DNA from: Pilasporangium apinafurcum
Lineage: Eukaryota > Oomycota > Peronosporomycetes > Pythiales > Pythiaceae
Direction: 5' to 3'
NCBI GenBank assembly: GCA_001600495.1
Contig: BCKE01000113.1
Location: 1 to 36,633 of the forward strand
Length of the DNA stretch: 36,633 nucleotides
Below are positions 1,258 to 26,827 of this stretch, piece after piece; the first letter of the stretch is position 1; each line of letters opens with the position of its first letter. Both the position numbers and the translations under genes were made by a program. The notes under the pieces are model-generated. The model did no database searches, was not told where the DNA came from, and saw only the letters and a program-made list of their open reading frames with translations.

Positions 1258-3147
1258 ATGGCGACGTCGCTGCCGCTCCCGCGCGGCTTCTTCGATGCGA
1301 ACGTGCGGCTCTCGGAGGAACAGCGACGACAATACATTGAGTATGCCGAGTCGTCCATCCGCAAGATCTTCGCGCTCAGCGACTCACATAAAAACAGCTG
1401 GATCCCATCGCGCGAGAAGAAAGGTATCGCTGTCTTTCGGAACTTTGGTCAGCTGCGCGGCGCCACGGCTTACAAATCCAACATTGCCGAAGTGGCATGC
1501 AAGAGCGAACTGCGCGCGTCGCTGGAGCAGATCGGCCGCGCGTACGCTGCACATGACGACGCGCTCTTCCGTCGCCTGATGAAGAAGCTGAATCCAAACG
1601 TGATGGATGCCGCTGTGATCTTGACGATCGTACCGCGCACGCCACGCACACCCTTTCGATACATTGGGATCAAATGGTACGCAGTGAAAACCCCTACACC
1701 GCTGGTCTCACATCGCGACTACTGCTGTCTCGAAGTGCAGGACAAGATCGTGGATGCGTATGGAAACGAAATGTTTATCCGCATTCTGAATTCTATTGAT
1801 GTGAACGAATGTCCATCGCTGGAGAACTCACATGGGCTCGTACGCGCGAAGATCCTCGCCGGATTCATCTATCGCACAGACCGGTCGGAACCGAATCTCA
1901 TCCGTGTGCATCATTTAGCGCGGTTGGACCCATCAGGATATTTTCCGTCACAATGGGCGTTCAAAACGGCCGAAGCGCAACTCGTAAGTAGTGTCGTTCA
2001 GACGCGACGTATCGTTGAGAAGCAGCAGATGAACGCCTGTACATTTGTCGACAAGAAGCAATGGGTGCCGAATCATGAGCGTCAGCATTGCGCGGTGTGC
2101 AGTCGCGCCTTTGGAACTTTTCGTCCACGTCATCATTGCCGCTGCTGCGGAGAAGTGATCTGTGGTAAATGTAGCGTCATCAAGTCTGTTCACGTCCCCG
2201 GCACATCCCTGAAGAGTGTACGCATATGTTCCATTTGTAACATGGGCGTCCAACGAGCCGCCACGACAACGAACAACAATGAAGGCGAGATCGAGAACGA
2301 CGTGGACGACGATAGCATGTCGGACATTTCGTCGTCATCGATTACGTCCAGCAGTACCGTTGGACAGAATGAGATGAACATGATGGATCTCTACATGAGC
2401 GCCAACAACCCAGGCACGCCATCTGCTTATTCGAGCGCCTCTACACAGTCGAATTTGTCTATTCGTTCCACGGCGTCATCTCGATCGGTGTATGACGCAC
2501 GCAGTCGAGGTCAAAGCGGACTTTTTCGGGGCCATTACGGCTCCAGTCGCACACCGCGATCTCACTATAATGACGGCAACACCCCCCGATCGTATATCGC
2601 CAACAATCTTACATCTAGCCATGGTGCTGTCGGTTTTGGTGGCAATGTCACACCCAGATCTGAAGACACTAGCGGTGCTGATACACCATCGTCATCCGCA
2701 GCATCACAGAGAATGTCAGCTTTCAAGCATAATCCGCTCGATCTGGGCTACTTAGGCAATTCAATCAATGGATCCCACGACCGGACTGAATCAGCTGCGT
2801 CATTGTTGCCTCCTACCGATACGCAGCAGGTGGACACTGCTGATGCATTGGAGACAGAAAATACAACAGAAGCAGAAACGGAGCCTGTGGAGACAGTAAT
2901 ACAACAGAATGACAGAAAAATACTCTCTTCACCTGATACAGAGGAAAAGGAAAATGATCAGGACTACGCACAGCCGCAGCAAACAGCTCCGCGTGCCTCG
3001 GAGAGTCCACGATCGAGTCGGTCGTCCACTATTCGACCGTCATTGAAAGATGAGATAAGTAGTGGCAAGAAGTCGTTCCTTGGTAGCCTTTTTTCACGTG
3101 GACGGGGACTGTCCGTTGGAAACCTCAGTGCACGAGCAGCATCATAG
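1258..3147 (+). CDS. START/FYVE-finger protein
   Basis: Single-exon gene for about 629 residues. The open frame extends upstream to 1072 but has no ATG before 1258, where GACCATGG gives a good start context. A FYVE zinc finger lies at about residues 268-325 with a WVPNHERQHC lead and the basic RPRHHCRCC core followed by further CxxC pairs, the signature that binds phosphatidylinositol 3-phosphate on endosomes. The segment before it (about residues 20-260) has the size and position of the START-like lipid-binding domain that oomycetes often pair with FYVE; this was not verified by fold. The C-terminal 300 residues are Ser/Thr/Pro-rich, acidic in places and probably disordered. The expected role is endosomal membrane recruitment and lipid binding. 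It ends 89 bp from the convergent coiled-coil gene. Confidence 0.88.
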   Translation: MATSLPLPRGFFDANVRLSEEQRRQYIEYAESSIRKIFALSDSHKNSWIPSREKKGIAVFRNFGQLRGATAYKSNIAEVACKSELRASLEQIGRAYAAHDDALFRRLMKKLNPNVMDAAVILTIVPRTPRTPFRYIGIKWYAVKTPTPLVSHRDYCCLEVQDKIVDAYGNEMFIRILNSIDVNECPSLENSHGLVRAKILAGFIYRTDRSEPNLIRVHHLARLDPSGYFPSQWAFKTAEAQLVSSVVQTRRIVEKQQMNACTFVDKKQWVPNHERQHCAVCSRAFGTFRPRHHCRCCGEVICGKCSVIKSVHVPGTSLKSVRICSICNMGVQRAATTTNNNEGEIENDVDDDSMSDISSSSITSSSTVGQNEMNMMDLYMSANNPGTPSAYSSASTQSNLSIRSTASSRSVYDARSRGQSGLFRGHYGSSRTPRSHYNDGNTPRSYIANNLTSSHGAVGFGGNVTPRSEDTSGADTPSSSAASQRMSAFKHNPLDLGYLGNSINGSHDRTESAASLLPPTDTQQVDTADALETENTTEAETEPVETVIQQNDRKILSSPDTEEKENDQDYAQPQQTAPRASESPRSSRSSTIRPSLKDEISSGKKSFLGSLFSRGRGLSVGNLSARAAS

Positions 3148-3236
3148 AATTCCCTCTAGATTTGTATCAGTACGTAGAAGGGAAAAAATAAATAAGTAGA
3201 TTTCAGCAAAAAATCCGCAATAATATCCTCAAACAG

Positions 3237-7744: not shown

Positions 7745-10700
7745 TTATGAACCAGTAGCATATATGGAAATGATTGCCGATGCCATTGCTACTCTCGGCC
7801 CTCCGGACCCGGTGAAGCCGTTGTCGTCCACGTAAATTGTAAGATAGTCCTGCGTGCTGTCTTGGCATTCGTCTTGAACAAAGCAACCATACTCAAATAT
7901 GCTGAAGATCTGAGACGACGACGCAATGGAAGACGCAAATTCGAGCGTATTTGAGTCCCCATCATTCGCATTCAGATTGCTGACGTCTTTGGTATCGGCA
8001 CGCAGTTTACCGCTGGCAACGGTGATTTTGAAATAAAGAAGACCGTTGCCCGCGTCTGGATCCGAGATCATAATTCCTTTCAGCGCAACCCATGCATTCT
8101 GAGGTGCGTGGTACTGAGACGGCAGATGAACCACAGGAGGGTCGTTAATTGCGATTATTTCTATAGGAATCCTTTTCGTGACTGCATATCCACGACCATC
8201 ATCTGTGTCGTCCATTGGCCGATCATCCTCAAGCATAACGAAAATATTGTCCCATCCAGTTTCTTGTGGGTTCGAATGGTAGTTCACCTGCTCAACGGCG
8301 CAATTCAACGCATCAACATGACCTGACACTTTTATCACGTGATCACAAGTCAAGTTACCCTTAATGATGGAAATGCCGTCACAATGGCGACCCAGGCTTA
8401 GCCATCCCTTTGAGCAGTTTAGAGATAGCGTGAAAGGGAAGTTTGCGTCAGAGGAGTCGAGGGCCTCAACTGTTATCGAACGCAAGTAACTTTGAGCATC
8501 TGCTGAATTTGTCTGCTCATGAAAAGCGTGACTGTTGCTAAGACCCACACCGAAATAGAAAAATGATGGCGACCCGATGTTTACCAGCTGCGGCATCGCC
8601 ATTTGATCCATCGCAAGTGTGTTGATATGACCAATCTCTCGTGATCCTGGAAAAAGCTTGACCGTCCCAGCTACAGTTCCATCTGTCTCCCAAAACTCCG
8701 TTTGCTGATCTCGTTCCGCCTGCGCACTAAAGACTATTCGATCCAATGGTCCAAAAGGCAGCACCGTAAGATAACGAGGTCGAGATCCTGACACCCCTGG
8801 TGAGAGATCGACGAGCATAAATGTTCCAGCCTGGGTTCCATCTGTTACCCACAACTCGGGCCCATAGCGCCCGTCATCTGCTTGAAAGAACACGCGATTC
8901 GAAAATGCTGTCAAGTACGATGGCGACGAGCCAGCCGCTTCGGCATTGATATCGACCAAAAGAAGAGTTCCTGCAGCAGTTCCATCGGTTGCCCAGAGTT
9001 CGGGTCCATGGATGCAGTCGTCTGCTTGGAACAATAGGAGTGAGCCATCATTCATAGCTGTAAAGGACCTTGGATTGGAGGAACCAACACCTGGACAGAT
9101 ATCCAAGAGAAGACCAGTGCCGACGTGTGAATGATCAAGCGCAAAGTTGTTCCGTGGTTGCCCATCTGAAAACCATAGTTCTCGTCCAAAGGCTTGAGTC
9201 TGCGCTGAAAAGAACAACCGATCGCTGAGTACTGTCAGATCGCGGGGCTCGGAACCGCGCTCTCCGAACTCAATATCAGCGACAAAGAACGTTCCAGCTT
9301 TGGTGCCATCCGTTGCCCAGAGTTCTGCGCCATATGCTGGTGATGTAGCTTGAAAATAGAGGAGGTTGTTGAACTCGGTCAGAAATGCGGGATCGGAACC
9401 TTGAGGGTGTGAACTAATGCGAACTACTCGGTGTGTGCCTTCTGAAGTACCGTCTGTCGCCCATAATTCTCTCCCCCACCCGAAATTGGCGGTGTCTTTA
9501 TCTTGGATACAAACAATTCCTGCAAACGCCTCTGTTTGGAAGCCTGTGTCCACGCGATACGAGTCACGATAGCCGGCGTGCTTAAAAGCGCCGCTCGCCT
9601 ATTCATAAGCAATAAACAAATATTAGGCCACCCACTCAACGTTTGGCACTGACAAAAATGGCACCTTGGAGTCTGCAAAACGGAAATACTTTCTCTCGAC
9701 TCCACCCCACACATATCCATTCCAGCCGCATTGATCATAGTATGCAAGCGGCTCCTGGCCATGGCCGTCTAGTGGATTGGATCCAAGGAAAACAGAATTT
9801 GCTTCGGCTGTGGACATCCAGCGGAATCCGACTGGGCAATTATACGCCTATTTGTGGAACATAGATAGAGTTACATTACAATACACGCTATTGAGTATCG
9901 AGGAATAGTTACTACCTCGTCCACATCCCACATGTTGTTTTCTGCCACTGCAAAATAGACATTTGGAACAAAGGAGCTCTGTCGGAAACTCTGACAGTCA
10001 TCCACATAATCGCTTCGGATTTGCCATGAAAGGTGTGGACCCTCTGCGGAGAAATAAACACGGTTATCGACTGAAAATGGAGTCAAATATGCTGGTTTTG
10101 AGCCACGAATGCCTGGATAAATATCTTTCAATAGACTTGTTCCAGCCTCCGATCCATCACTATGCCACAGTTCTGCTCCAAATCTATTATCATTCCCACT
10201 AAACAGCAACCTTCCATTATGTGCCAATAGATACGATGTCGTTGAAAAGTCTGGTCCAAAAAAGTTGTGCAAGTTGTAGAGCCGAATCGATGATTCAGTG
10301 GCGTATGGGTTGGCTGCCATTAATGTCCAACGCGGTAACTTTGTCTGCGAGCATTGGTTCATCTGCTTTTCCGAAAGAACCTGCAACGGTGGAGCTCCTT
10401 GGAGTAAAACGGACGAGTTCTCTGCAATTCGAAGGAGAGGCTGACGGGAGCCATAGGGTGGGAGATGAATGTCCGGTCTATAATTGACGCCGCGAACATG
10501 GACACCGAGAGCATATGTCGTAGTCTGAGGACCTCCTTTCCCGTAGTTCCCCAAATCGGAAAGCATGATGACAACAAACGCTACGCCATGGAAATCTTTT
10601 CGTGTGCGAAAGATGAGGTTGCTCAGGAATCCGTCATTCACTGCTGCGGGACTCCCGTGGACAATGCATTGCCTGTCGAGTGGGTGATTATGAGAATCAG

Positions 10701-13700
10701 TTGGGAGAAATATGAGTCCGTCATGTTTGACTTCATTGTCCGTCATCTGAGATATGCGAATGGTGCAGTCCACACAGGTAACATTGACGAGCAAACGCAG
10801 AGATGAGGCACTTCCATCAGTAGTCTCCTGGTCCGGGTCATAGACCTCCACAGAGTTGAGAGAGTGCTCTGAATCTTCAATCACTTCAAGAGCATAAGGG
10901 ACTAATACCGGCAAGTCTTGTAGGGAGTGTAACGATAAAATTTTTACAAAAGGCTGGGAAAGCAGAATAGGAGCATCATTCACAGCTTCCACACGCATAC
11001 GGATGGTCAAGAGTCTACCTTCACCGAAACTATCACCGTCACACCCTCCTGTGGCCCGAAAAATGATCGCATCAACTGTATTCCCATTCGAGTTATAATT
11101 GGTGCTTGGTCTGAAGATCAACCCACGAAGAGCAGTATTGATATCTTGGAGTCTCCCAGTGAAGACAAGTTCCGAAAAGAACAGACGAGACGTGAAAATT
11201 TCGTCATCAGCAGGTGGTATCTTGCTGTCGTGAATCTTCGCATAGACCTGGTGGGTAACGAGTAGGCCCTTCAACGTAGCTAACATCACTCCACCGTGAA
11301 GCGCTTGGATGGATATCGTTACCTCTCTACGATCGGCATCCTGATCTGCTGTCGTTAGCGACAATGTGTCCACGAGCACATCACTATCTTCGTCGAGCAT
11401 AAGAACGTCCATGAACTGTGTTGAATGCCATTGGGGTTCATCGCATGTAGGTGCAACAAAAAGGTAAATAGAGGCAGCGGTAGTTCGCCCCGTAGTTTCA
11501 TCAGTAATAGATATTGTCAGTTGCTCTGATCCATACCAGTTTACAGATGGGAAATATGCGCTTCCATTTAATGCCGTATTGAGCTGAGGAAGAAAACCTC
11601 GGAGAACGATGATATTTGATTCATTCCGCACAATCTGAATCCCTAGCGTGGATCGTACCGCGAAACTTCCATTGGTAGCAGTGATCGTCACTTCCAACAG
11701 CACAGGATGTCGCGCAGATTTTGAGTCATAAAGCTGAATCACTCCATCGAACGTGACAAACGTATCTTCGTCTAGATAAAGTACGTCTGTCGGAGCCTTC
11801 AGTTCCAATTTATCTGAGTGCCAAGCGACTGGAGAAAACCTAATCGTAGTTGTGCTCACATGTGGACCACCCTTCCCATATGTGCCACGGTCATCAACAG
11901 TGAGCATTAGATGAATGTTCCCCCCCTCGAGGAATTCTATGTCGGAATCCTCTATTTCGAAGATGAGCTCTGACAACGCGTAGTTGAGCTCCTGCTGTGT
12001 CCCAGAAAGTAAAATATATCTAGAAGTTTTGATCGCTATATCAACTTCCTCCGCCTGCGGGAGTGTTATAACACCATGACTTGTCTGAAGTATCAAATCG
12101 AATTCACATGACACACAATCATTGCCGAGAGTGTCGATGTCTTCAAAGGACACACCATGCATAAGGATTGGGCTTCCTTTCTCAACAGTCAGAACAGAAG
12201 GATATCCTGTTTCCCACGATGGCGGATCGTTTATGGGATCAATTTCGATGGGAATATTGATAACCGTGTCGAGTGTGTACTGGAATGTGTTCTCATCCTT
12301 CGTATTAGCCGTTATGATTAGAGAGTCCGTACCGTAGAAATTTCGGTTGGGAAGATACCGCAGATTCTGAACGCTCTTATTGACGTTGGCAATGGTACCT
12401 CTAAACTTAAGCGATTTCGCGCCGTTGTGAGTGTCGTCCAGAAATGAGATGCCAATGATTCCGGAAAGCTCAAGGGTTCCATTTTGGACGCTCATACTCA
12501 CTTGAAGACTCGTGTGTGATGTCTCGTCAGGACTACTGAAGGACAATCCGTGCGTGATAATCCATATATCCTCATCGCCGTGCAGACTGCCGGATGGCTT
12601 GTCGACATGGTCACCACTTACGATATTGCCATCGAAATGAATCGCAACTGGATCGGGTGTAGGAATCACATACACAAATAGCACCGAAGTCGACGAAGCA
12701 TTGAATGAGGAGCACTCAGTGACATGGATCTTGATAGAGTCGAACCCATCATCGATATCTGAATCGAGGCTATAAGCGAGACTGTTCCAGTCTTTTGCCG
12801 ACGTGTAGACAACGGAGGAGATGGCCCAGTTGATGTTTCTTAATGTTCCTTGAAACGATAGCCTTTCATTAGCCGCAGATGGTACCACGTGGATCCCATC
12901 ATGCCTCAACAGAGCTAGAGATCCAAATGCAGCATCCATCGTGACAGAAACGAGCGTGTCTTCAGATATATCAAGATCAACAATGCGAATGTCCTCAATC
13001 ACAAGTGGTAGATCCTCCTCACTCTCGTAAAACGTAGAAGAAATAACAAAGGGGGCGTCATTGATCTCGCGTACATGAATAGGGATCGCAGCAGTTTCTG
13101 ACAGCCCATTGAAGGAGCTCGCCCGGATCTGTAAATAGTCAATACCGCTGAAATTTGGGTCACTCAAATATATCAACGACTTCACAATACGATTCAGACA
13201 CGATAATTCACCGCGAAGCTCGATGGTGTTGGGTGCTTGCTGTCCCGAAAATTGAGTAATGCAGCTTGTATCGCTCAAAGTCAGTGTTCCATGTAATACT
13301 GACATCTTGAGCTCAAATAGAGCCAATGCGTTTGAGGGTTGAACTTTCTGCATATCCGCAATCCGCACTGTAAAACCATCTAACGCAATGGGGGTGTCTT
13401 CATCGCACTCAATTGGTGAACATTCCAACCGTTGATGGGACAGAAAATCATCCATCGATCGTGGCGGATACTGAATGAAAGATGGCACTGTGACCACTGG
13501 AGCATCCGCGCGTGGAGTGATCAACAAATAAGCATATGTCTCGTACAATTTATCTTCATGAGAGACTGTGAACGTCCATTCCACGACGTGATCATTTATG
13601 CTTTTTTCGCTGTTCCAATTCAGAGGTGGGTAATAGACCAACCGACCTAATGATTCGAGCAAACCCTCATGTGAGTCAGATAGTGTGATGGAGTTTGTCG

Positions 13701-16700
13701 AATCCTTTATCACTTCATCGTTCAAAATACTGGGGATAGAAATTGAGCCTACATTGACATGAATGCGGAGTTGATATTCGATGTGACTGACAAAGTGATT
13801 AGTAACAGCTGACCATGGTTCGACATCGACAAAGAAATAGACAGCATTCTTGAAGTGAAAGACCGATCCAGCAGTACCAACTGGTTGCTCAAAACGAATG
13901 CGGTGATTCGCATTGAATATGCTGTCCAAGACAGGCAGGAATTCAGCTTTCGTATCATCGATTTTCCAAATATTTTTCCTTTCGTTGGCATCGTTTGCAG
14001 TGAAATAGAGATCTTCATCGATCATAGTGCCATCTTCACGTTTCAAAACAATAACAGAAAGATGGGTGGGTCTGGAGCCCACTGAACCAGGTATCAAATC
14101 GACGAGAAGCTTCGTGCCGATCTCTGTGCCATCACTTACATACAGCTCACGTCCAACCGAACTATCAACTTCTGCTTGAAAGTAAAGTTTGTTCTTGTAC
14201 ATGACTAAATCCGTCGGGTTGGATCCGCTCTCTGTTGCAGTGTTAAGGTCCTTCACCATTCGCGTCCCAGCAATCGAGCCATCCGTGATCCATAGCTCTC
14301 GGCCGTGAATACAGTCCGTCGCTGCAAAGAAGACACCGTTGGAACCGGACACGAGGAACTGTGGGTCCGAAGAGCCACTACCAATGCAAATGTCGTGTAC
14401 AAGAAACGTTCCAACAGACGCCACATTGCTATTACTTAACGATGTCTTTCGATTTCTTTCCGCCGAAAAGCTTGAGTGCGCATCCGTCGCCCATAGTTCG
14501 CGTCCACTTTCAGCTGTGGCAGCAAAGTACATACGCCCGTCTCCCGCTACCCATTCGGCAAAAAAACTTGGATTAGAACTTCGTGGACCGCGCCAAATGT
14601 CTTCGACTATCATGGTACCGCTCATGGTCCCATCTGTTTTGAAGAGCTCGGTCCCAAATTCGTCCGTTGTGGCTTGGAAAATTAACCATTGTGATCGAAA
14701 TGGGGTGTAGAACTGTGGATTCGTGCCTTTCGAGCCGTCTCGGATACCCATCACACGAGTTGTATGGCTTGGAGTGCCATCAGTACGCCATAGTTCTCTC
14801 TCCTTAGTATTCCGTAAACTACCTCCCTTCTCTGACTGCGTATTTCGAATACAAACAATTCCGGCAAAATCAGTCGATGCGAACGAGACTTCCACTGGAG
14901 CGGAGTCTTGTCGTCCAGCATGTTTGAGTGCTCCAGTGATATGCGAGTCCGAAAAGCGAAAGTATACTCTGCTGACTCCATTAAACACATATCCGTCCCA
15001 GTTGCAACTATCCCAAAACACATACGGTTCAGTTGCGCTCATTTGTATGTTGGATGGAAAAAGTCTGAAGGCGTCATCTGTAGATGCCCAATACGATCCT
15101 GGTGGGCAGTCATACACTGTGGATGGAATCCAAGTGTTATCCTTTGCCACAACATAGAAAACGTTACTGCTCACGGAGCTTGACCGCAATCCATTGCAGG
15201 TTTTTGTATCGAGGGCCCAGCTCAAGTCAATCCCAGATGCTGTGAAATAGAGCCAGCCATTCAGCACGGAAAATCCACTCGGTGATGATCCATGAGGACC
15301 TGGCTCCAGGTCAACAAGCATCCGAGTACCCGCATTCGATCCATCAGAAACCCAAAGCTCTTCTCCGTGTGTGCTATCGCTACCACGAAAGAAAAAATAG
15401 TCGCCCATTGCACAAAATGTCGAAGCAGATGTCATGTTTGGGAAATCAAAAATCCAATCAAGTTTCCAGAAGTCGGACGCTCCAGTTAGATAGGGAAATG
15501 TAGCACTCCAGAGCTGAATAATAGTAAACTTGGATTTTGACGCGTTTCTTGGCTTTGTAAACTCTAACGAGAGATCCGGAAATTGGAAAGCCGTGTCTTG
15601 TCCGCTAAAGTAGGTGTTTGATCCTAATAGCACACGCGGAACAGCTATCACTTCTGTGATCTCAATAATTATGGTTCGATAGTGTGCTGCAACTGGAAAT
15701 GTGTTTTGGTTATAGACGGAAAGTGAAATGGTATCCCGAAGGTGATAGCTTTTGTAATACAGCCATCGAAGCGCTTCATTTATTGCCTGCATCTCCCCAC
15801 GGCAAGTGAGAATTGCACCGCTAGTATCCATGTGAGTAATCTGAATAGTGATTTGGTCCGACTGAGCAAAAAACAATTCGCCAAATTCTGTTCGCGCCTC
15901 TAAAACCACCTCATCGTTTCTTTGAGATATAGACTTGCTTATATCTCCGACTGAGACCCCAGAAATGAGGATTTCTTCTCCTTTCTTGGCTTGAATTGTC
16001 CAAACTTCCCAATGTGCGGATGTAAACGGGCCTAAGAAACGTAGACAAGGTCATAGGACTGAAATAGAGATAAGAATACCAAGTGCCATGTATACCTTCA
16101 ATAGATCCCTCGATGTGAAGCAATGGGTGCAGTGGAGGCATGCTAATTAGTAATACGAATACACTCTTCCCCAAATTTGCTCCATCAACGTCAAATATAA
16201 CTGTGGACAAATAATCGACTTTTGCATCGTTTAGGAAAGAAGTGTACTGAACATTCCGCAGCTGTTTATTAATGTTTGCCACTGTTCCGTTGATCCACTG
16301 AACTTCGTCTGCGCTGGTCGAAGTCATTCTGCCAACCGCAAGTATTCCGTTGTCTGTTTCAACTTTTAAGTGAAACCATGCTGTACTCCTACATTCTGTA
16401 GTACAGATGAGACGAAGTTCCTCCAAAACACGAGTCTGGCCCCTCGTGACATTAATGGCATCTGTAGATGTTGTGAGCTCCACTGCCACTGCTGGTATAC
16501 TACACGGAACGCCAACCTCTGAACTTACTAAAGTATCCAGTAGCTCCTCCATCCCTGGACGGGTCGAACTGTTCATAGACAAAGCAAACAGGATTTGAAC
16601 GTATCCACACCAATTGTCTGGAAGGTGATATGTGAGCCGTTGAACGTAAGGATTCATATCTTTTGCGTATCCCACAAGAGAATGACTTTTGACAGACTGG

Positions 16701-19700
16701 TGGAAATTCAAGTTCTTCATCCAGCCTTCCGTAAGATGTCGATCGTCACCAAACTGGAATGCTCCTTGATAAGAACGTATCTGAATTGAATCAACTCGAG
16801 CATAGGCCCCAACACCAGTCAATGAGTTTCCATCTGCGATAAGAAGGGGTTGGATGCCTTCAGAATTAATCATTGGAGCTGTAATGTCATCGATAAAGAG
16901 GATAGCGTACCGATATCCATTCTCTGCTATACTACTACGAGCCTTTCGCACGACCACATGGCCCAATCTAAATGCATCTGAATATACAGACGGCAATTCG
17001 TTCAAAATGTGTTCAATACTCTCCGCACTTGCGTTTGCCGGAATGGGTGGTGTGAGTTCTGAACAGTAACTGAGTGTAAACGTACCACCAACTGGATTCG
17101 AAGACTGTCGTACTGTGATTTCGACGTTAGCATTTTCCCCTCTCATGTTGTCAGAATTGGCGACAACGAGCTTTGGGAAATCGAATGGAGCTTCTTTAAA
17201 CGTAATCAGCCACTCCACTGAACCTACTACACTCAATGGACCATGGGTAACATAGACCTTAACGTCACGATGGCGTTTGTTCAATCTTTTGATCGCCTGT
17301 TCGATCTTGTTCTGCATAGATTCTCCCATTCTTTGGCCAATTCCATAGGAAATGCCTTCGTCTCGTTTCATGGCTACAGCATTAAACGCAATGGGGCTGG
17401 AAATGGATAGTAGTGGAGAATTCGGATCGTTTAGCTCTTGAAAGCCGACGTTAAACTCCCCATAAATGATTGTATCAGCACTGGTAACCAGCGCGTATAC
17501 TGGTTCAATCGCAGATGCGCCGACTGTGACCTCGTAGAGATTCCCTTGTCCGTATCCTTTCAAGATACGTTCAACGTCAACAAACGCACCACCCTTCAAT
17601 ATTTTACTTGTTGCATCATCGGAAATTTTAGCGAAGGGACGAAGTAAATCAGATTTCCCACGAAGTAGTGGGATGTTGTCTCCTGGGCTGAAGAATGTAA
17701 TTTCCCATGTGACGGAGTCTATCTTTGCGACCTTTGCAGTTTCTACTGTAGAAAGTGCCTCTAAAGCATCTTGAACGTCCATATCACTCGCATCGAAAGC
17801 TATGGCTTCTGTTGTCTCGTCATGCAATTGCAAACGAAACGACCCATCCAATACGGCAGTCGCAATATCACTATCTACAAAAACATCGCAGCAACCTGGA
17901 CCACCAACAAGGTTGGACGTTGATATTGTTGGAGATGGTAGAAGCATTGGAGGATCAGTGATGTAAACTGTCCAAATCAATCTCTGTGTTAATGGACCAG
18001 CCCAAGTTCTGACAGCGTGAAGGTTGATGGAAGAGCTAAGCTTTAATGCGCCAAATAGTGATCGGAACTGTGCTTCAATTGACGCTGATGGAGATCTACC
18101 ATTGTTCATTTCCCCAAGTACTTCGTCTGTAATCATTGCAACTGCATCTGCGTAAATGTGGAGAGTCATATAGCGATTAATGGCTGAAGAACCCAAGTCA
18201 AATCGAAGCTCCAATGTTCCTGTGGTAGATGTTACAGAACCAGTTCGTGTTGCTAATGTGATCGTCATAGTCTGCAACTGACTTGGTGTATGGATTGTCA
18301 CTCGTTGGACCTCAAGGTCGATACGAAGTCTACTCGTAGTCTGCAATCGAAGCAACTCCGCGGCAGATTGATGGAATTCATCACTAGCGCTTTCATCAGA
18401 GCCCTTAATTGTTAACTCATAAAGCGAGAGCTGCCTCCTCATGACGTCCAATATGGCATACTCTTCTGGAAGTGCCAGACCAATATTTCGATAATTGGTT
18501 ATGCATCCGGTTACAGTCAGTAAGGTTGAGACTTCTTGCGCTTCCCATCCTTGTATCCCATGTCCACGATCATTCACAACCACCAGCAACTCATTTTGGT
18601 CGAAGCAACTCGAACTTTTGTGCCTGGGCACATATAACACTCGAGCTAGCGCTTTGTTTGCATTTGCCAGTGTTGCTTCAAATGCCAAGTGTGTATACCC
18701 ATGTGCAGCTTCGTGCATTTTAAGGATCGTCACTTGATGAGCTGCTGCTCTATCAATCAGAAATGCTCCGGATGAGGTCGACAGATTCACTAAAAAGAGA
18801 TCAGACGATACGGCCAAGTCATGGCTATCTATATCTACATCGTGGATTCGAATCCGCTGTTCGAAGTAGCTGACGTTGATGTACGGATCCGAGATGCTTT
18901 GATACCTTACTATGGGTGGATCATTAACGGGCTGGATCAGAACAAGGACTCGATGTTTAAGTGGTGTTGGGGATGGCTCAGCATACTTTTGTCGAACATC
19001 AAGCAACAGAATATCCTCACCAGATGCATCGCGGTCGGGCTGGTAGATGGTTGCAGCTAATGCATTAATGACGGCAGGGATTGTTCCTATGATGATGATT
19101 TCCCGCTTACTACTTCCAGATTGTACTTCTACACAACACACACTCTCTGGAACGACCAAAGACCCCAGTTCTACATTTGCTGTTATGGCGACCAATAGTT
19201 CATCACTTTCATAGCCTCCCTCGATAGCAATCAACTCACCAAGTTCCATAGGCTCATCTTCGTTCACATGAATGGCTTGATCTTGTTTCTTCAACCAAAA
19301 ATTTGGTACATTTAGCGTAGGTTGGTAGTACAGATGAAGCAGAGTGGTTATTCTCGCTTCGTCACGGTTTTCAGTTTCCTTAACCGTACAATGCAGATTG
19401 ACTCGACTTACAGGATGATATGTGTCCAATGACACCGCAATTCCCGCAAGAACCCGATTTATTTGCGCTCGTGTAGTCGAGAACTCAATTGGATTCTCAT
19501 CAGGCCCGCAAGGTTTATCTAATCGTATGATACCTGGCGTATGTAAGCTTAAAAGTGCTTGACCAGCAGTACACTCAAAGCGAACGGTAAGATGGAGATC
19601 TAATTCTTTATCTCTACCTTGCACTTCCACGCCATGAAGACGTGCTGTGTTGTCGACACCATCTGCGATCATGTCATTGCGATAAATTTTCCAATGCAGC

Positions 19701-22700
19701 GGTGTCAATTCCAGAACATAGTAAAAAGAGACACTGGCCATGTCATTCCATTTGTGATGATTACGAATGTCTTCCGAACTTACAGACGAGATGGAAATGA
19801 CGATCATTTCCTCCATATTGTTTGAAATTTTTGGGTCAAGAGCCATCTCCAGAGAATGCACGACAGGCATAAGGTCATCACACTTCCCTAAAAATTGAAG
19901 GGAAGAGTCATGCAGTGCAGCAAATTCATATGATATACCTGGAATCAGCGCTTCGTATATCCACTGACATCGCAGGCATGTGACATTCAACTCCAGTATG
20001 GGAGCTTCTTTACTAGCCTTTTTGTCTTCTCGTCCATCATCATCATTGTTGCTGATGTTTATTGCAAGCAGCGAGGATAAACTTTTCCGCTCATTTTGTC
20101 GCCAATACAATGTGGCCATTTCGGACAAGTTCCGCACACTTAATCGATATGGTGGTTCCGAGGCAACCACCGTAATATCCAGGCTTGCTGCTGCTTGCCA
20201 CTGCATTTCATCATCAAAGAGTTCCAGAGTTATGGTTGCGTTGTTAGGGGCAGGATATGCATCATCGCTCTTAAACACGATAGAAGAAAGAAAGAGATTT
20301 AGGCAATCGATATCACGAGCATACACCATTATGGTTGTGCCGACACGATGATCATCAACTTCACTTGGTTGATTCGCTTCGTAAAAGTTTGCACAGTCCT
20401 GTGGGCTCACGGAAATATCGCCAAACTGTGCATCAATCCTCAGAACCAGTGGAATCTCACGACTGCCTTTCTGTGCATCTACATGAAAAGCACCTGAAAG
20501 ATCCAAAGAGCTACCACTACCCATGATCGCTGAGATCTTTGCTTGTTCTCGAAGTATAATGCTGTAGAAGCGAGTACGAAATGGCAGAAAGAGCTTGTGG
20601 CATGCCGTATCTGTGCCATCATTGACACAAATGGTGATGGTTGCTTCATGGGTTGCATAAACGGACTGATCCAGCACTTTTGGTAATATCCGTACTGTTG
20701 TCTGCGCGAATAGGTGATTGAGGAGGGATAGCGACGACATGAAGCGGATGAAAGTGGAGTTGCGGGTAATAGCGACTGTAATTCCATCAAAGCGCGGATC
20801 CGAAGGATTCTCTACACGTAAGAATCCCTTGGTAGCTTCTATTTCAACCCGAAACGGATCGTCCTCGTCTGGATCCAGAATATGAAGCCTGGGGAGAAAA
20901 ATCTTCAGCTGATTGACTTGTTGCTCCCATTCTTGAGTGCTTACATCTACTTTTGGCGGATCATTCACGGGTTCAACACGAATGTGCAACGAGTTTGTCT
21001 TTCCGTGATGCTCAAAATCTACTCGATCAACTCCATTAAAATTTGGATTTGGGACATATCGCAACAACAGCAATAGTCTACGTTGGCTCTGAAAATCAGG
21101 AGCTACAATCGTGAGTGATCTGTTTAGAAGTAAAGTAGTTTTGATATCTTCGTGCATTATGTACAATACGCCATGCTGAGCAATAGCAGTCACACTTCCA
21201 AGCACGCTGTTGTCAAAGCTATCTGCTCTTCGTAAATCACATAAATGACCGATGAGAACATCTGCGTCTTCTAGTGTTGTAAGAGCATTCTGCATCAGGA
21301 TAAACTCAGTTTCATCAGTTAAATTTTCATATTTCAAGTGGACCATCGCAGACGAAAACACATCGTCCGTGGTTGGCGACGCTGCAGCATTTACACGAAT
21401 TGTGATATTCGCAGAAGTCAATCTTGGTGCATCACAACGGTACTTTACGGAGGAAAACGAGTGACTGAGATCACGTACAGTTCCGATCAAAACTAGTTCA
21501 CTTCCTCCTTCCTGCTTTTGTCGGCCCTGCACTGTATCATGAAAGACGGACCCCGATGTGGTATGAATTACCATTCGAAATCCTTTGTCGTCCTGGAAAA
21601 ATCCAACATCTTCATCCTTTTCAATATGTAGCGCTGGTAATGACATCTCAGACAAAGCTGGCATCGTCATAGAGAGGAAGTTCGAATCACTTCCCACCCA
21701 GGTCAAACGAGGCGGATCAGGGATTGGCGTGACAAATACTGGCAGGATGGCAGTCGTTTCTTCCAGTAGAATATCGTCGTCCACTTGACTTTCAAGGATT
21801 TCTTCCACCGTCACCAGTATTTGATCTGGGCCGTTAAAATTGCGTTCCGGCTGGTATTCAAGAGCGTGAAGGAAGGCATTTGTTTGAGCAACAGTGCCTG
21901 TAAAGTGAACCATCTGATTGCCTGATGAGTTGGCTGACGATCGCTTTGTTGCAGACAAAAACAACCCATGTTCTGCTCTAAGCGATATATTGAGAAGGAT
22001 ATTTGCTTCTTGAGTTTCACCATTACCCGTACGGATAGTTATGTTCCGAAGTGATTGGGCAGTGTCCTCTGGTGTGACAAGAAAGTCTCGCTCATCTATA
22101 AATCAAATATGTTACCATGTTAGGTACATACCATAGAACTAGTGTGGGGACACGCAGCAACTTACTGATCGTGCTTCCATCGAACAACACCAAGATCGGT
22201 TGAGGGCGCCGCACTATCTGAATCGCTAGAGTAGAGAGAGTTGACGCTGAGGTATCCATATGATCCTTTCTATGAGCTAAGTCGACAGAAAAGGTGATGG
22301 TATCTTCTGCAGGAGTCACATCATTGACGTATCGGTATCGTAATGCATCTAAAGCCATATTAACAATAAGGGGGGTGCCACGTAGCTCCCAGACCATCTT
22401 TACCTCCTTGGACACGCTATGGAGCCTCGTTATATGTGTCATACTAGGAGATAACGTCAGGTATCCAAGTCCCGTTTCCAGATAAACGCTAATTACGCTG
22501 TCTAGAGTAGAGCAGCAATAATTTGAAGGGTAAGAGTTGGTTGGAATTGATAATGTGATTCCGTGAATTTCGACTTCCTCATTTTGAAATACGGTCATCG
22601 ATTTTGCAGAAAGACTTAACATTGGTGGAGTAACTGGGAAGATAATTTCGATTGGAAGGACTTCCTGTGCTTTGACATCAAGCCCTCGAAGATGAATGCT

Positions 22701-25700
22701 GAGTTCATCATAGCCAGATGCTTCGAGATCGGGTGTGTAGACAAGATGATGGGATTTCAGTCTGTGATTCAACTCCAACATTGATCCTTCTAAATGTAAC
22801 TCCTCGTAATGCTGTTCGAGAGCACCATTAGGGTGAAACTGTGTAATTTCCATTGGATTTTGGTCCCGTGGAATTAATGATAGTTTCCCTTTAGAGCACG
22901 ATACAACCAGCTTCACCTCGTTTCCATATCCATACAACATAATCCCGTCCACCAGCAAAGGTTGGCTCACATTTGCTCTGAGAAATGACATACCCAGACT
23001 AATACTCAAACTCTCTTTCTGATTTACCACATGCACGTCAATGGTGGCAAAATCCAGCAATCGATGATCTTGGAGAGTATATACTGACAGTTGCAAAGTG
23101 TCTACTACAGGAAGGGAGTGATTCACTTTTCCCCAGAGACTGCTTGACTCAAGATAAATAGTGGACATTGCAGTAGCAAGATCTCCCAGAGTTCCTTGTA
23201 GCTCCAACTCATGGTTGGAAGGCTGACGAATTTTCAGAGACGATGCACGAGGATTATATTGCCAATGAATGTTGACAAATTCACTCCGCACTCTCCAGTG
23301 CAGCATAATCTCCTTCATACTTCCATCAGCATATGATCTATTCGCAACAGAAACTTGTGTGACCAACGGATGAACTATTGATACTGAATCTAAGAAGAGA
23401 AACTCATCCTTCTTAGTTATTAACTGATCATTGACAACCAATCTCACGTCCACATACGTGGAGACAATATTTAAAGCCAGTCGAGCTTCAAGATTGTCGG
23501 TGTAGGTCTCGATGTCTATCTCCGCTTGTTGAATGATAACTTTTAACTGGTTTTGGCTCCAGGAACTTATGCCTGGTGAATAAAGCGATAGTGTAGACAG
23601 AGTTGCCGCAACGGCATTCTTATCTCCCTGGAGAACCAGACTCGGACTTGCCTTTCGTATCAATGTTTGAGCCTCAGAAATAATCTCCACAGCGTGCACT
23701 AATGACCCCGGCAGATTCCAGATGTGCCACGCCCTTGACTCTGGATATCGCATCACTCGTGTATGGTGGATGCTCTCTCCGTGTGTAGCAATTGCATTAA
23801 TCGCACGTCCAATCTCGATATCTGAGCTCCCTTGGTGGAGGATGGGAGAGATAAGAGAATAACACTCATTCACTGATGCACATGCCGTTCTAATGAGCTG
23901 AAATTTTGCCTCACTGTCGCTGATTTCTTCCCCAAACTCAATAATTAGCATATTCCTCGGTGGATACCTGTCATTTTTTCTTTGCAGACTCGAGATTGCG
24001 GCCCGGTTCATTGGAGGAAACGCGTCAAGATACACTGTAGGGATATTTTCCAGTTTGGTGGTATATTCGATCACGCAAATTTGTTGGTGACGATCACTAG
24101 AACAGTGTGCCTCACAGTTCAGATCAGTTAACACACTAACTGTGTGCTTCAGCTGCTTTTCGGTAAAACGATACGGAAGCGAAGCAGTCCGTTCTGAAGT
24201 CCAGGTACTATGTTTACTCTTCAACTGGATAACGCCCATGAACCTAGTGTCGTCTAGATAAGAAAACAATTATCATAAAAAATCTTAGAGACCCCATCTG
24301 CATATTAATTTAAATAACCACTTACCTTCTGTTATATCCACCACTAGTCCCGATCCGCGTAATGTATTACGAGAAACGTCAAAAGTAGCCCAAGCAGTTG
24401 TATCATCATCAACAATGATTTTCCACGAGCAAGCCAACTGGGGATCTTCACAGGCAAGCACTGAGAGATCAAAACTTCTAGCAAGAGGTAATGGTAATTG
24501 GTGTTGCAGCATCGATTGGATTTTGGAAATGGGGGAATCAGCAGATATATCTGCTTCGTATGTCGTATTTAGATAACCAAAATGCAGTTGAAACACTCCC
24601 GAGAGACCAACACTGCCTTGGTCAATAGTGCGGTGCTGTAACTGATCAATGCCTGTTGCCGGGCTTGAAAAAGCGGAGCATGACTTGCAGTACGAGGCCC
24701 CATACGGATGATCAACGTGATTCCATATTGGAACAATCACCACTTTGCTGTTTTCGCCAAGTGCCGTGTCTGTCAAGAACGTTATCAGCCATATCCGCTC
24801 ACCCTCAGGACCAGCTGACAGAGTTACTTCGACTTGATCGAGACCGGTTGTTTCCTCTAATGCGGCTTCAAGGTCAGTAGATAAGGCATCAAACGATATC
24901 TTTTGAGTGACTCCACGCAACGCTGGGGGATTGACAATGCGCAACGCAAATTCACCCGAGACAAGTGGAGAATCCGCCGATAATATGAGCTGATCAATTT
25001 GTGGTCGCACTGTTCCCTCTGCTAGACGTTGCACGGAAATCTTACTACCTTGGCCAGACCACTGGCCAGGAAATGACAAGATGTTCACATCAAGCAATGG
25101 AATATTGGGTCCTGATAGAGTTTCAAACGTAATCACCCACAACAGCCCTTTGCTCCATTCTGATGTGCCACGTGAAACCTTCACTCGGCCTGCGTTGGAT
25201 AGAGCATTTAACGCGTCTTGTAGGTTTCTATCTGATTCGAGTGCAGGTGACAAATCGATAGCAACAGTGGAGATTACATCAGCGTACGTTAACGCTAATG
25301 TGATTGTAAACTTGTCAAATGACTCTCCCTCATCCAACCGGGCCGCTAGAGTCTGGACTTCTTTTTGAAACCCAGTCGAGAGATGCAGTAGTTGGGAAGT
25401 TAACCCAGGAAGTAGAGACATCTGATGAGATACATCAATAACTGTGAGTTGTTGAGTATAAGTAGTGATGGGATCGTTTGGAGCCATTATTCCAAAATAA
25501 TCTTCAATCCCAACTAGAGTGCCATCGTCATGTTGCAGCTGAACCTCAGCATACACTTGATCAATGTTACCAGGAATATACTGAACATCTAGTCGAACAG
25601 AGGCATTCTGCAGTTTTATCACTTCGCTTTCTGCCTGCATGTTTCCTTCGATGCTACCGACATCCAAGAGAGGTATAATTTGAATGGGAATTGAAACGGA

Positions 25701-26827
25701 AGCAGACAGTGGTTCTGCAATTTTTACACCATAGAATCCATTGTCAGAAAGAGTGATGCGCAATCCAGCTTTTGCAGATGAACTGTGTAAAGAAGTGCAG
25801 TATCTGATTGCGCTGACGAATGTCATGAGACCGCCAATAGTTCCATCTAACTCGACAAATGTCGCATTCACCTCGGGATTTTCCAAGTCAATCGACTGGT
25901 TCACAATTCGAACACCATTAATTAGTCCTTCTCGTTGATTCAAAAGGATATGGCCTTCATTTTCGATCTGAAGCTGGAGCGTCATCACTGGGACGAAAAA
26001 ATCGCTTTCATTTTCCAAAAGGATTCCGTCTGGATCAGATAATTGGAGTTCTGGAAGGCTAGTGCATTCTCCCTGAACGACAACGAGATCACGATGGGAT
26101 GTAAGCATGATGGATGGAGCACTATTGATGCTATGCATAAAAATTTCCACTTCGTGGATGATGGCTTCCGAAGAAAATAGTTGTCGATCGCAGGTGTCAG
26201 GTACTTCACGTAGCGCTATTGGTTCACTCCTCTCCAAAGTGAATAGCACCCTTCCATGGCCTTGTACGACGCTTGAGAATGTTGGATTTGCTGCATTTGC
26301 CCAATCAGAGTGGTAATTGGCATCAGGTGTGTAGGTGAGCGCCGACAGAAGCTGCTGCGCTTCTGTAATCTTCGTGTACGCAGTTAGAGATCTCTGTGGA
26401 AGTGTGACGTCACTTGAGTCAGAGCAAACGAAGGATGTTGTGATTAGCTTGTCTATTGTGTTCTGGTCGACTGATAGACTACCATGCTCACATGATATCT
26501 ACACAACGTAAACGTTTTCACTTAGTACCGGCGAATCAAACAGTCGCACAATCGCAGACTTTCGAAACACACCACAAGACGGACTGAATCATCGCTGGAA
26601 TAATCAGCACTGTCAAGTGATGCGAGAATAATCGGATCAAACCTGTAGCCTTGGTTTTCATCGATTACAACGTGCTGAGGCTCCTGGATATGTGGATTTA
26701 GTCAACCATTACCATCTCCAAATAACATTCATACATTACAATATCTTACACTCGTGAAACGGAGCTGCGCAGCAACGAAGAGATACCAGTATCCGAGAAG
26801 ATGCACTGCCAAGTAAAAGCAGTTCAT
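7745..26827 (-). CDS. Giant secreted protein with cadherin-like/tandem-95 modules and two ELWxxDGT repeat blocks
   Basis: Eight exons: 26827-26750, 26683-26573, 26498-24326, 24253-22166, 22095-16096, 16031-9916, 9847-9665 and 9598-7745. Seven GT..AG introns of 64-74 bp join them, and all phases agree, giving about 6,200 residues. The start was chosen because the 26-codon first exon is a classic signal peptide (MNCFYLAVHLLGYWYLFVAA) with a donor GTAAGA. The mature protein starts with beta-sandwich modules resembling tandem-95/cadherin-like repeats, with ends such as PVNDPP, REINDAP, EAVNDAP and AINDPP and cores such as GTLxxINxAL..LxYxPxxNFxGxD. It also has repeats ending in W-[EVL]-ITF, two ELWxxDGT blocks, and a last cadherin-like pair. 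No C-terminal membrane anchor is visible, so it is probably secreted or wall-bound. The expected role is adhesion or matrix; this is inference. ELWxxDGT repeats are best known from bacteria. Confidence 0.85.
8620..10260 (-). repeat. ELWxxDGT block B (seven repeats)
   Basis: Seven repeats in protein order: ELWHSDGSEAGT, ELWATDGTSEGT, ELWATDGTKAGT, ELWFSDGQPRNN (irregular), ELWATDGTAAGT, ELWVTDGTQAGT and EFWETDGTVAGT. Order, spacing and irregularities match block A one to one, including CIHG before repeat 5. The block spans exons 6-8; two introns fall inside its cysteine-containing insert. Confidence 0.88.
9520..10040 (-). other. Cysteine-containing module inserted in ELWxxDGT block B, split by two introns
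   Basis: The counterpart of the block A insert: NVYFAVAENNMWDVDE, then (next exon) AYNCPVGFRWMST, DQCGWNGYVWGG, RKYFRFADSK, then (next exon) ASGAFKHAGYRD and FAGIVCI. Introns 9848-9915 (68 bp) and 9599-9664 (66 bp) interrupt it, both in phase 0. The splice joins were set by matching to the uninterrupted block A copy. Confidence 0.82.
10330..13860 (-). repeat. Cadherin-like/tandem-95-type modules between the two ELW blocks
   Basis: Roughly eight modules of about 120-150 residues. Each opens with an acidic ED/EDE strand (CDEDTPIALDG, SEEDLPLVIED, LDEDTFVTFDG, LDEDSDVLVD). Each then has a V-G-x-L strand, a GTL..IN..L.Y.P.. segment (e.g. GTIANVNKSVQNLRYLPNRN), and a closing strand ending in INDPP/INDAP/VNDAP. 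These are calcium-site-like motifs typical of bacterial and protist adhesins. Confidence 0.75.
13900..15450 (-). repeat. ELWxxDGT block A (seven repeats)
   Basis: Seven repeats of about 45-70 residues, in protein order: ELWVSDGSNAGT, ELWRTDGTPSHT, ELFKTDGTMSGT, ELWATDAHSS (irregular, with an insert), ELWITDGSIAGT, ELYVSDGTEIGT and the degenerate NIWKIDDTKAE. Each is followed by a DL/DI..G..GS.P stretch and a VYFxA strand. Seven repeats fit a seven-bladed beta-propeller (inference). Repeat 1 is separated from repeat 2 by a cysteine-containing insert. Confidence 0.85.
14860..15230 (-). other. Cysteine-containing module inserted in ELWxxDGT block A
   Basis: About 120 residues between repeats 1 and 2, uninterrupted by introns. 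Landmarks in order are NVFYVVAKDNTWIP, YDCPPGSYWAST, DSCNWDGYVFNG, RVYFRFSDSHITGALKHAG and FAGIVCI. It matches the block B insert along its whole length. I could not name the family; the paired cysteines suggest an extracellular disulfide-bonded fold. Confidence 0.75.
16850..18000 (-). repeat. Tandem beta modules ending in W-x-ITF (set 2)
   Basis: Exon 5 holds further copies of the same unit, e.g. DGSFRLQLHDETTEAIAF followed by DALEALSTVETAKVAKI and TWEITFF, a unit with VEWLITFKE, and one starting GGTFTLSYC. They are separated from set 1 by cadherin-like modules, so the units were dispersed within the protein. Confidence 0.55.
24326..25400 (-). repeat. Tandem beta modules ending in W-x-ITF (set 1)
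   Basis: Within exon 3, three to four tandem units of about 100 residues share one pattern: SGEFALRI or SGVFQLHF, a Thr/Ser segment, a helical stretch such as DLEAALEETTGLDQVEV, then LWVITF or IWLITF. The pattern recurs in exon 5. I know it only as a loosely defined repeat in large protist surface proteins and give no family name. Confidence 0.6.
26768..26827 (-). other. Signal peptide of the giant protein
   Basis: The first 20 codons from the ATG at 26827 encode a hydrophobic stretch (LAVHLLGYWYLFVAA) preceded by Met-Asn-Cys and followed by QLRFTSEPQ. A VAA-Q junction fits a signal-peptidase site. It is encoded almost entirely by the small first exon, a common arrangement for secreted proteins. 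Confidence 0.72.

Follow-up and report, generated by a model that had tools for sequence, protein, structure and literature searches.

Nonagonal cadherins of stramenopiles, a nine-pass membrane group reportedly described by Fletcher et al. in 2016, are among the known proteins of this lineage with cadherin-type modules. Other large oomycete proteins are on record: excerpts of PMC2926784 describe true cadherins of Pythium ultimum that carry the calcium motifs LDRE and DxND, and excerpts of PMC3869178 describe large peripheral vesicles of Phytophthora zoospores holding a glycoprotein of more than 400 kDa (PnLpv) that is kept, not secreted, at encystment, as well as oomycete adhesin and coat proteins that are released at that stage. 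Zoospore and cyst adhesion and coat formation are central to host settlement by water moulds, though few of the large proteins that take part in them have been identified. In this study, a giant gene was investigated in the 36,633-bp contig BCKE01000113.1 of Pilasporangium apinafurcum; the window is this complete contig (C113), one of the 136 that make up a genome of 36.47 Mb. We observed one intact gene, confirmed to be open in frame from ATG to stop, whose product combines tandem-95-like modules, two ELWxxDGT beta-propellers and a repeat of about 80 residues that is common to other giant proteins of the genome and to phage tails.

Elicitins belong to oomycetes, and radial spokes are parts of flagella. 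Since the genome contains 50 elicitin matches and three radial-spoke-3 matches (two above cut-off), the host can be regarded as a flagellate oomycete.

Structure of the gene

Splicing of the minus strand from the ATG at 26827 to the stop at 7745 joined eight exons through seven introns into a single frame of 6,200 residues. All seven introns are of the GT-AG type (Table 1), and keeping any single one of them led to a stop after 7 to 62 codons (7/7). Splicing is best supported from within the gene itself: introns 6 and 7 interrupt propeller copy 2, whereas copy 1 is intronless, and the copies (43-44% identity) align without a gap through both junctions, so that these two introns are independently confirmed. 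At intron 2, the joining of SVRLV to ISCEHGSLSV resembles, when read by eye, the corresponding position of other modules. At each junction, 6 to 16 GT-AG pairs spaced 50-110 nt apart hold the frame open, and because several pairs do so, the sites chosen at introns 1 to 5 represent the choice of the best motif.

The original prediction of a single 19-kb gene with eight exons, seven introns and an intact frame was reproduced by this splicing. It had also held that the locus looks like six genes when unspliced; we found five open reading frames (ORFs) of at least 150 residues, and a sixth and seventh are reached only by counting the 74-residue ORF of exon 7 and the 72-residue frame of exon 1. The five main stop-to-stop frames measure 617 to 2,063 residues, compared with at most 148 for any further frame listed between 7000 and 28000, and the locus illustrates how easily giant genes get split into separate gene models. 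A division into several adjoining genes, at intron 3, 4 or 5, would be compatible with the position of these introns outside recognised domains, but such an arrangement is highly improbable, as the intergenic gaps would measure just 64-72 bp and every one of them has frame-restoring GT-AG motifs. Moreover, the first methionines past introns 3, 4 and 5 (aa 793, 1545 and 3551) are not followed by a signal-like hydrophobic stretch, with best 15-residue hydropathy means of -0.35, 0.71 and 0.42 versus 1.65 at the real N-terminus.

Propellers, modules and the shared repeat

The ELWxxDGT family TIGR04534 scored 327 and 275 bits in two ORFs, against a curated cut-off of 65. A regular expression detected five and six motifs, or about seven per propeller copy when degenerate ones are counted. 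The blades are about 48 residues long and contiguous, apart from blade 1, which is separated by an insert; both propellers carry this uncatalogued insert of about 125 residues. Located some 60-67% and 87-95% along the chain, they are the sole ELWxxDGT propellers found in the genome, and their alignment indicates that they arose by internal duplication. Blades 2-7 of copy 1 were modelled at high confidence, and copy 1 is predicted to adopt a beta-propeller fold, its model matching solved propellers, of which the closest are S9/DPP4/prolyl peptidases at about 10% identity. This closest match would suit a secreted signalling or enzyme-associated protein whose propellers act on peptides or glycans, a role that is nevertheless very unlikely, as library scans of the five ORFs listed neither a peptidase nor any other catalytic family, and propeller likeness is common to many unrelated families.

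A self-trained profile recognised 25-27 tandem-95/cadherin-like modules, and the structure model of aa 4632-4757 is a beta-sandwich with a predicted local distance difference test (pLDDT) score of 93. The tandem-95 family NF012211 reached 42.7 bits (E 4.2e-11) in the exon-5 ORF and 63.3 bits (E 1.6e-17) in a second ORF, while the bacterial cadherin-like family Cadherin_4 (PF17803) scored 32.5 bits over one stretch of the exon-6 ORF, above its gathering cut-off of 25.1, and 15.7 bits, below that cut-off, in the exon-5 ORF. The cadherin family PF00028 gave no row for the five ORFs (E<=1) and no match in the genome (E<=0.001). A true cadherin identity was rejected, with neither a PF00028 match nor the LDRE and DxND motifs. 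The identity of a nonagonal cadherin does not apply either, as the entire protein holds one hydrophobic stretch above 1.6, within a module.

Part of the stretches between the module arrays is occupied by six repeats of about 80 residues. Their profile detected 13 stretches at E<1e-3 in the other giants of the genome, with none in the reversed set and none in any of five sets that had been shuffled locally. As the reverse test, a profile built from the repeats of the giant on contig C45 recovered all six copies (E 1.6e-13 to 0.015), together with six in the giant on C5, three in that on C1 and 24 in that on C45, the last being partly the training set; as a lone query, one repeat of our protein gave nothing better than E 0.1-0.3 for C5 and C45. 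Pfam returned no family below E 0.02 for 14 repeat members. In the PDB, a profile of these 14 repeats, drawn from three giants, matched 'Tail tip cage, gp23' (9d93) at E 4.6e-30 in three copies and a major capsid protein (9d9w) at E 2.5e-4, the phage origin of both being taken from their molecule names. It also matched two chains of a tubular mastigoneme (9ufe), at E 0.0038 and, for OCM5, 0.015. The six copies of our protein alone gave E 1e-12 for 9d93 and 0.61 for the mastigoneme. The PHROG tail sheath/major tail families phrog_2839 and phrog_10909 each matched 4 of the 14 members; the first repeat of our protein had no PHROG match, and in tblastn it met phage tail sheath genes (Gordonia phage) only at E 0.5 or worse.

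Though the matches to 9ufe and OCM5 and the flagellate nature of the organism would agree with a component of flagellar mastigonemes or of another appendage, this is distinctly unlikely for our protein, as the phage tail match is stronger and is retained by the profile of its own repeats, which loses the mastigoneme. These results speak against a simple mastigoneme interpretation and favour a structural module that is widely shared. Through the repeat, which has no Pfam family here, several giants of the oomycete are linked to solved structures of phages and possibly of mastigonemes.

With reference to the domain inventory of the original prediction, the proposed combination of tandem-95/cadherin-like modules and ELWxxDGT blocks in one protein fits the sequence tests, among them the TIGR04534 and Cadherin_4 scores. 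The tandem-95/Cadherin_4 likeness stood and true cadherins did not; the ELWxxDGT blocks can be refined to a pair of beta-propellers that arose by duplication and carry a new insert, and the repeat common to other giants and phage tails had been missed.

The other giants were also observed in their own right. The one on C45 (G000:C45:261763-289356, plus strand, loci L115-L117) exceeds our protein in size: its one open frame runs for 9,198 codons and contains numerous TIG/IPT domains as well as 24 shared repeats. A TIG-repeat giant on C32 (G000:C32:83531-109972, plus strand, loci L024, L025 and L122) consists of frames of 823 and 7,866 codons, assumed to be one gene, and displays three modules of the type described here as well as eight hydrophobic, possibly membrane-spanning stretches in codons 6980-7472 of its second frame. 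The shared repeat occurs with FG-GAP_2 and Calx-beta in a 3,754-codon giant (G000:C5:336895-348156, minus strand), and with a YHYH domain in a 5,402-codon giant (G000:C1:316909-333114, plus strand).

Table 1. Positions of the gene, its exons and introns, and the domains of its predicted product within the window
Feature	Position	Strand	Basis
Whole gene from ATG to stop, eight exons, product of 6,200 aa	7745..26827	-	splicing
Exon 1, aa 1-26, hydrophobic N-terminus resembling a signal peptide	26750..26827	-	splicing, hydropathy only
Intron 1, GTAAGA..CAG, 66 nt	26684..26749	-	splicing, retention test
Exon 2, aa 27-63	26573..26683	-	splicing
Intron 2, GTGTGT..TAG, 74 nt	26499..26572	-	splicing, retention test, module pattern runs across
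Exon 3, aa 64-787	24326..26498	-	splicing
Intron 3, GTAAGT..TAG, 72 nt	24254..24325	-	splicing, retention test
Exon 4, aa 788-1483	22166..24253	-	splicing
Intron 4, GTAAGT..TAG, 70 nt	22096..22165	-	splicing, retention test
Exon 5, aa 1484-3483	16096..22095	-	splicing
Intron 5, GTATAC..TAG, 64 nt	16032..16095	-	splicing, retention test
Exon 6, aa 3484-5522	9916..16031	-	splicing
Intron 6, GTAGTA..TAG, 68 nt	9848..9915	-	splicing, confirmed by intronless paralogous domain
Exon 7, aa 5523-5583, central part of insert domain 2	9665..9847	-	splicing, copy alignment
Intron 7, GTGCCA..TAG, 66 nt	9599..9664	-	splicing, confirmed by intronless paralogous domain
Exon 8, aa 5584-6200, and stop	7745..9598	-	splicing
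Cadherin-like/tandem-95 modules 1-2, aa 30-345	25653..26674	-	self-trained profile
Three copies of shared ~80-aa repeat, aa 455-545, 571-655, 690-773	24369..25325	-	repeat profile
Cadherin-like/tandem-95 array, 12 modules (first weak), aa 1114-2684	18494..23276	-	self-trained profile; NF012211 below cut-off
Three copies of shared ~80-aa repeat, aa 2894-2965, 3022-3130, 3147-3229	16859..17866	-	repeat profile
Three cadherin-like/tandem-95 modules (first weak), aa 3261-3616	15634..16765	-	self-trained profile
ELWxxDGT beta-propeller 1, aa 3690-4180	13942..15414	-	NCBIfam, copy alignment, model, structural match
Insert domain 1, uncatalogued and intronless, separating blades 1 and 2	14842..15225	-	copy alignment; low-confidence in model
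Cadherin-like/tandem-95 array, 8 modules, aa 4217-5337	10471..13833	-	self-trained profile, Cadherin_4, model
ELWxxDGT beta-propeller 2, aa 5418-5900, across introns 6 and 7	8648..10230	-	NCBIfam, copy alignment
Insert domain 2, divided by introns 6 and 7	9503..9904	-	copy alignment
Two C-terminal cadherin-like/tandem-95 modules, aa 5945-6200	7748..8515	-	self-trained profile

Candidate role at the cell surface

The sequence suggests, with a probability of about 0.6, that the product is a secreted, rod-like molecule of the extracellular matrix, a coat or an adhesive. It would have a mass of 686 kDa, an isoelectric point of 4.8 and 74 cysteines. The N-terminus is hydrophobic (best 19-residue hydropathy mean 1.39), and hydropathy along the whole protein revealed no hydrophobic C-terminus and no convincing membrane anchor; secretion is likely on these grounds, and the original prediction of a secreted protein fits these tests, which are of hydropathy only. 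A putative signal peptide would lead the protein into the secretory pathway, the 25-27 beta-sandwich modules with the six repeats interspersed would form a long spacer, the propellers and their inserts may bind glycans or partner proteins as lectin-like heads, and the protein would end up in the extracellular matrix, in a cyst coat or as an adhesive. The sequence itself shows the open frame, the domains and the propeller duplication; we infer secretion, a rod-like form, the binding of calcium or glycans, the place of the protein in the cell and adhesion.

A zoospore vesicle storage glycoprotein like PnLpv, and not an adhesive or matrix molecule, would also be in keeping with a flagellate oomycete and with the retained glycoprotein of more than 400 kDa in the excerpts on Phytophthora (PMC3869178). 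We consider it unlikely, as the duplicated propellers with conserved inserts would suggest binding over storage.

Several observations weigh against the matrix, coat or adhesive molecule. The signal peptide was judged from hydropathy alone, and the N-terminus lacks a positively charged n-region. The sole windows above 1.6 in hydropathy start at 2482-2484 (aa 2482-2502, top 2.03), inside a predicted module, and this stretch would pass as membrane-spanning but for the module predicted around it. The NF012211 scores fall under the curated cut-off of 90 bits, and the search of the genome with this family at E<=0.001 detected places in C32 and C1 and none in this gene. The cadherin calcium motifs are absent from the protein (LDRE 0, DxND 0), and the predicted propeller fold leaves the bound partner unspecified. 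Lastly, the joins at introns 3-5 would be held by frame continuity, splice motif, very short gaps and the want of a signal-like downstream start, lying as they do outside recognised domains.

The gene is a defined candidate, with binding-type heads, for oomycete adhesion or coat formation. Only tentatively, and as a rather doubtful extension, we propose a common kit for giant oomycete surface proteins, consisting of the phage-tail-related and possibly mastigoneme-related repeat, tandem-95 modules and, here alone, insert-bearing ELWxxDGT propellers. If true, the building module of bacteriophage tails would also occur in a eukaryotic cell coat or appendage, of which the 6,200-residue protein would be the glycan-binding member.

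Genomic surroundings and comparison with known systems

The genes flanking the giant gene are ordinary eukaryotic ones by Pfam (FYVE, NAT10, ADP-ribosylglycohydrolase and GlcNAc transferase). Third-position guanine-cytosine content was 0.40-0.46 in our gene and the C1 and C32 giants versus 0.55-0.60 in four neighbouring genes; codon use is alike among these three giants (correlation 0.82-0.88) and differs from that of the four neighbours. Elsewhere in the genome, locus L022 (G000:C1:346320-348993) displays head-to-head frames, 346320-347477 (minus) and 347764-348993 (plus), in an apparent inverted duplication with a common stretch near the starts and identical last 30 residues in the printed translations. 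A frame of 1,065 codons holds an elicitin match (G000:C19:220632-220880) and one of 2,619 codons a thrombospondin-type match (C70:100358-100495), both frames being large for their families.

The domain types are known, and the combination and host are new, with two domains lacking a library match. The term 'ELWxxDGT' was not found in the openly accessible papers searched, subscription literature being outside the search, and no oomycete title occurred among the nine of these papers using 'tandem-95 repeat' (titles only).

Among prokaryotes, the blade query gave at least 590 pattern matches, of which 578 of those listed were confirmed and 80 loci kept, all bacterial by title save one archaeal metagenome-assembled genome (MAG). 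Blade spacing was mostly about 48 residues in the 80 frames, and a VNDPP-type motif occurred in two. At E<=1e-3 our module profile matched one of the 80 loci, L066 from a Rhodothermales MAG, with one weak match (0.0049) in L091; the insert domain was undetected in the 80 loci (best E 3.9). By NCBIfam, run on L066, L091 and L098, tandem-95 was listed just for L066, which harbors nine ELWxxDGT and ten tandem-95 stretches and a type IX secretion system (T9SS) tail in one frame of 2,233 residues; no such tail was listed for our ORFs. The mixture, called unusual at the outset, is unusual for a eukaryote, with a bacterial precedent in 1 of the 80 loci. The combination is not exclusive to this oomycete, and the insert, splicing and scale are unmatched among these loci.

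Our protein shares the blades of about 48 residues and the ELWxxDGT motif with bacterial TIGR04534 proteins such as L066, but it is spliced, 6,200 residues long and has two propellers, each with an insert, making the gene a clear instance of bacterial-type ELWxxDGT propellers within a spliced eukaryotic gene. It has the module pattern and family matches of NF012211/PF17803 proteins, although its NF012211 scores are below the cut-off and its host is a eukaryote. The true cadherins of P. ultimum, as excerpted in PMC2926784, are likewise large extracellular adhesion-type module proteins of oomycetes, but they possess the LDRE and DxND motifs that our protein lacks. Nonagonal cadherins have similar modules and are said to be nine-pass, whereas our protein shows no series of transmembrane segments. 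Phage gp23 (9d93) and the PHROG tail sheath/major tail families have the repeat of about 80 residues in common with our protein, over about 50 of the 76-83 profile positions, and are virion proteins. By analogy, the role of our protein may be comparable to that of adhesins and of giant glycoproteins from the vesicles of oomycete zoospores.

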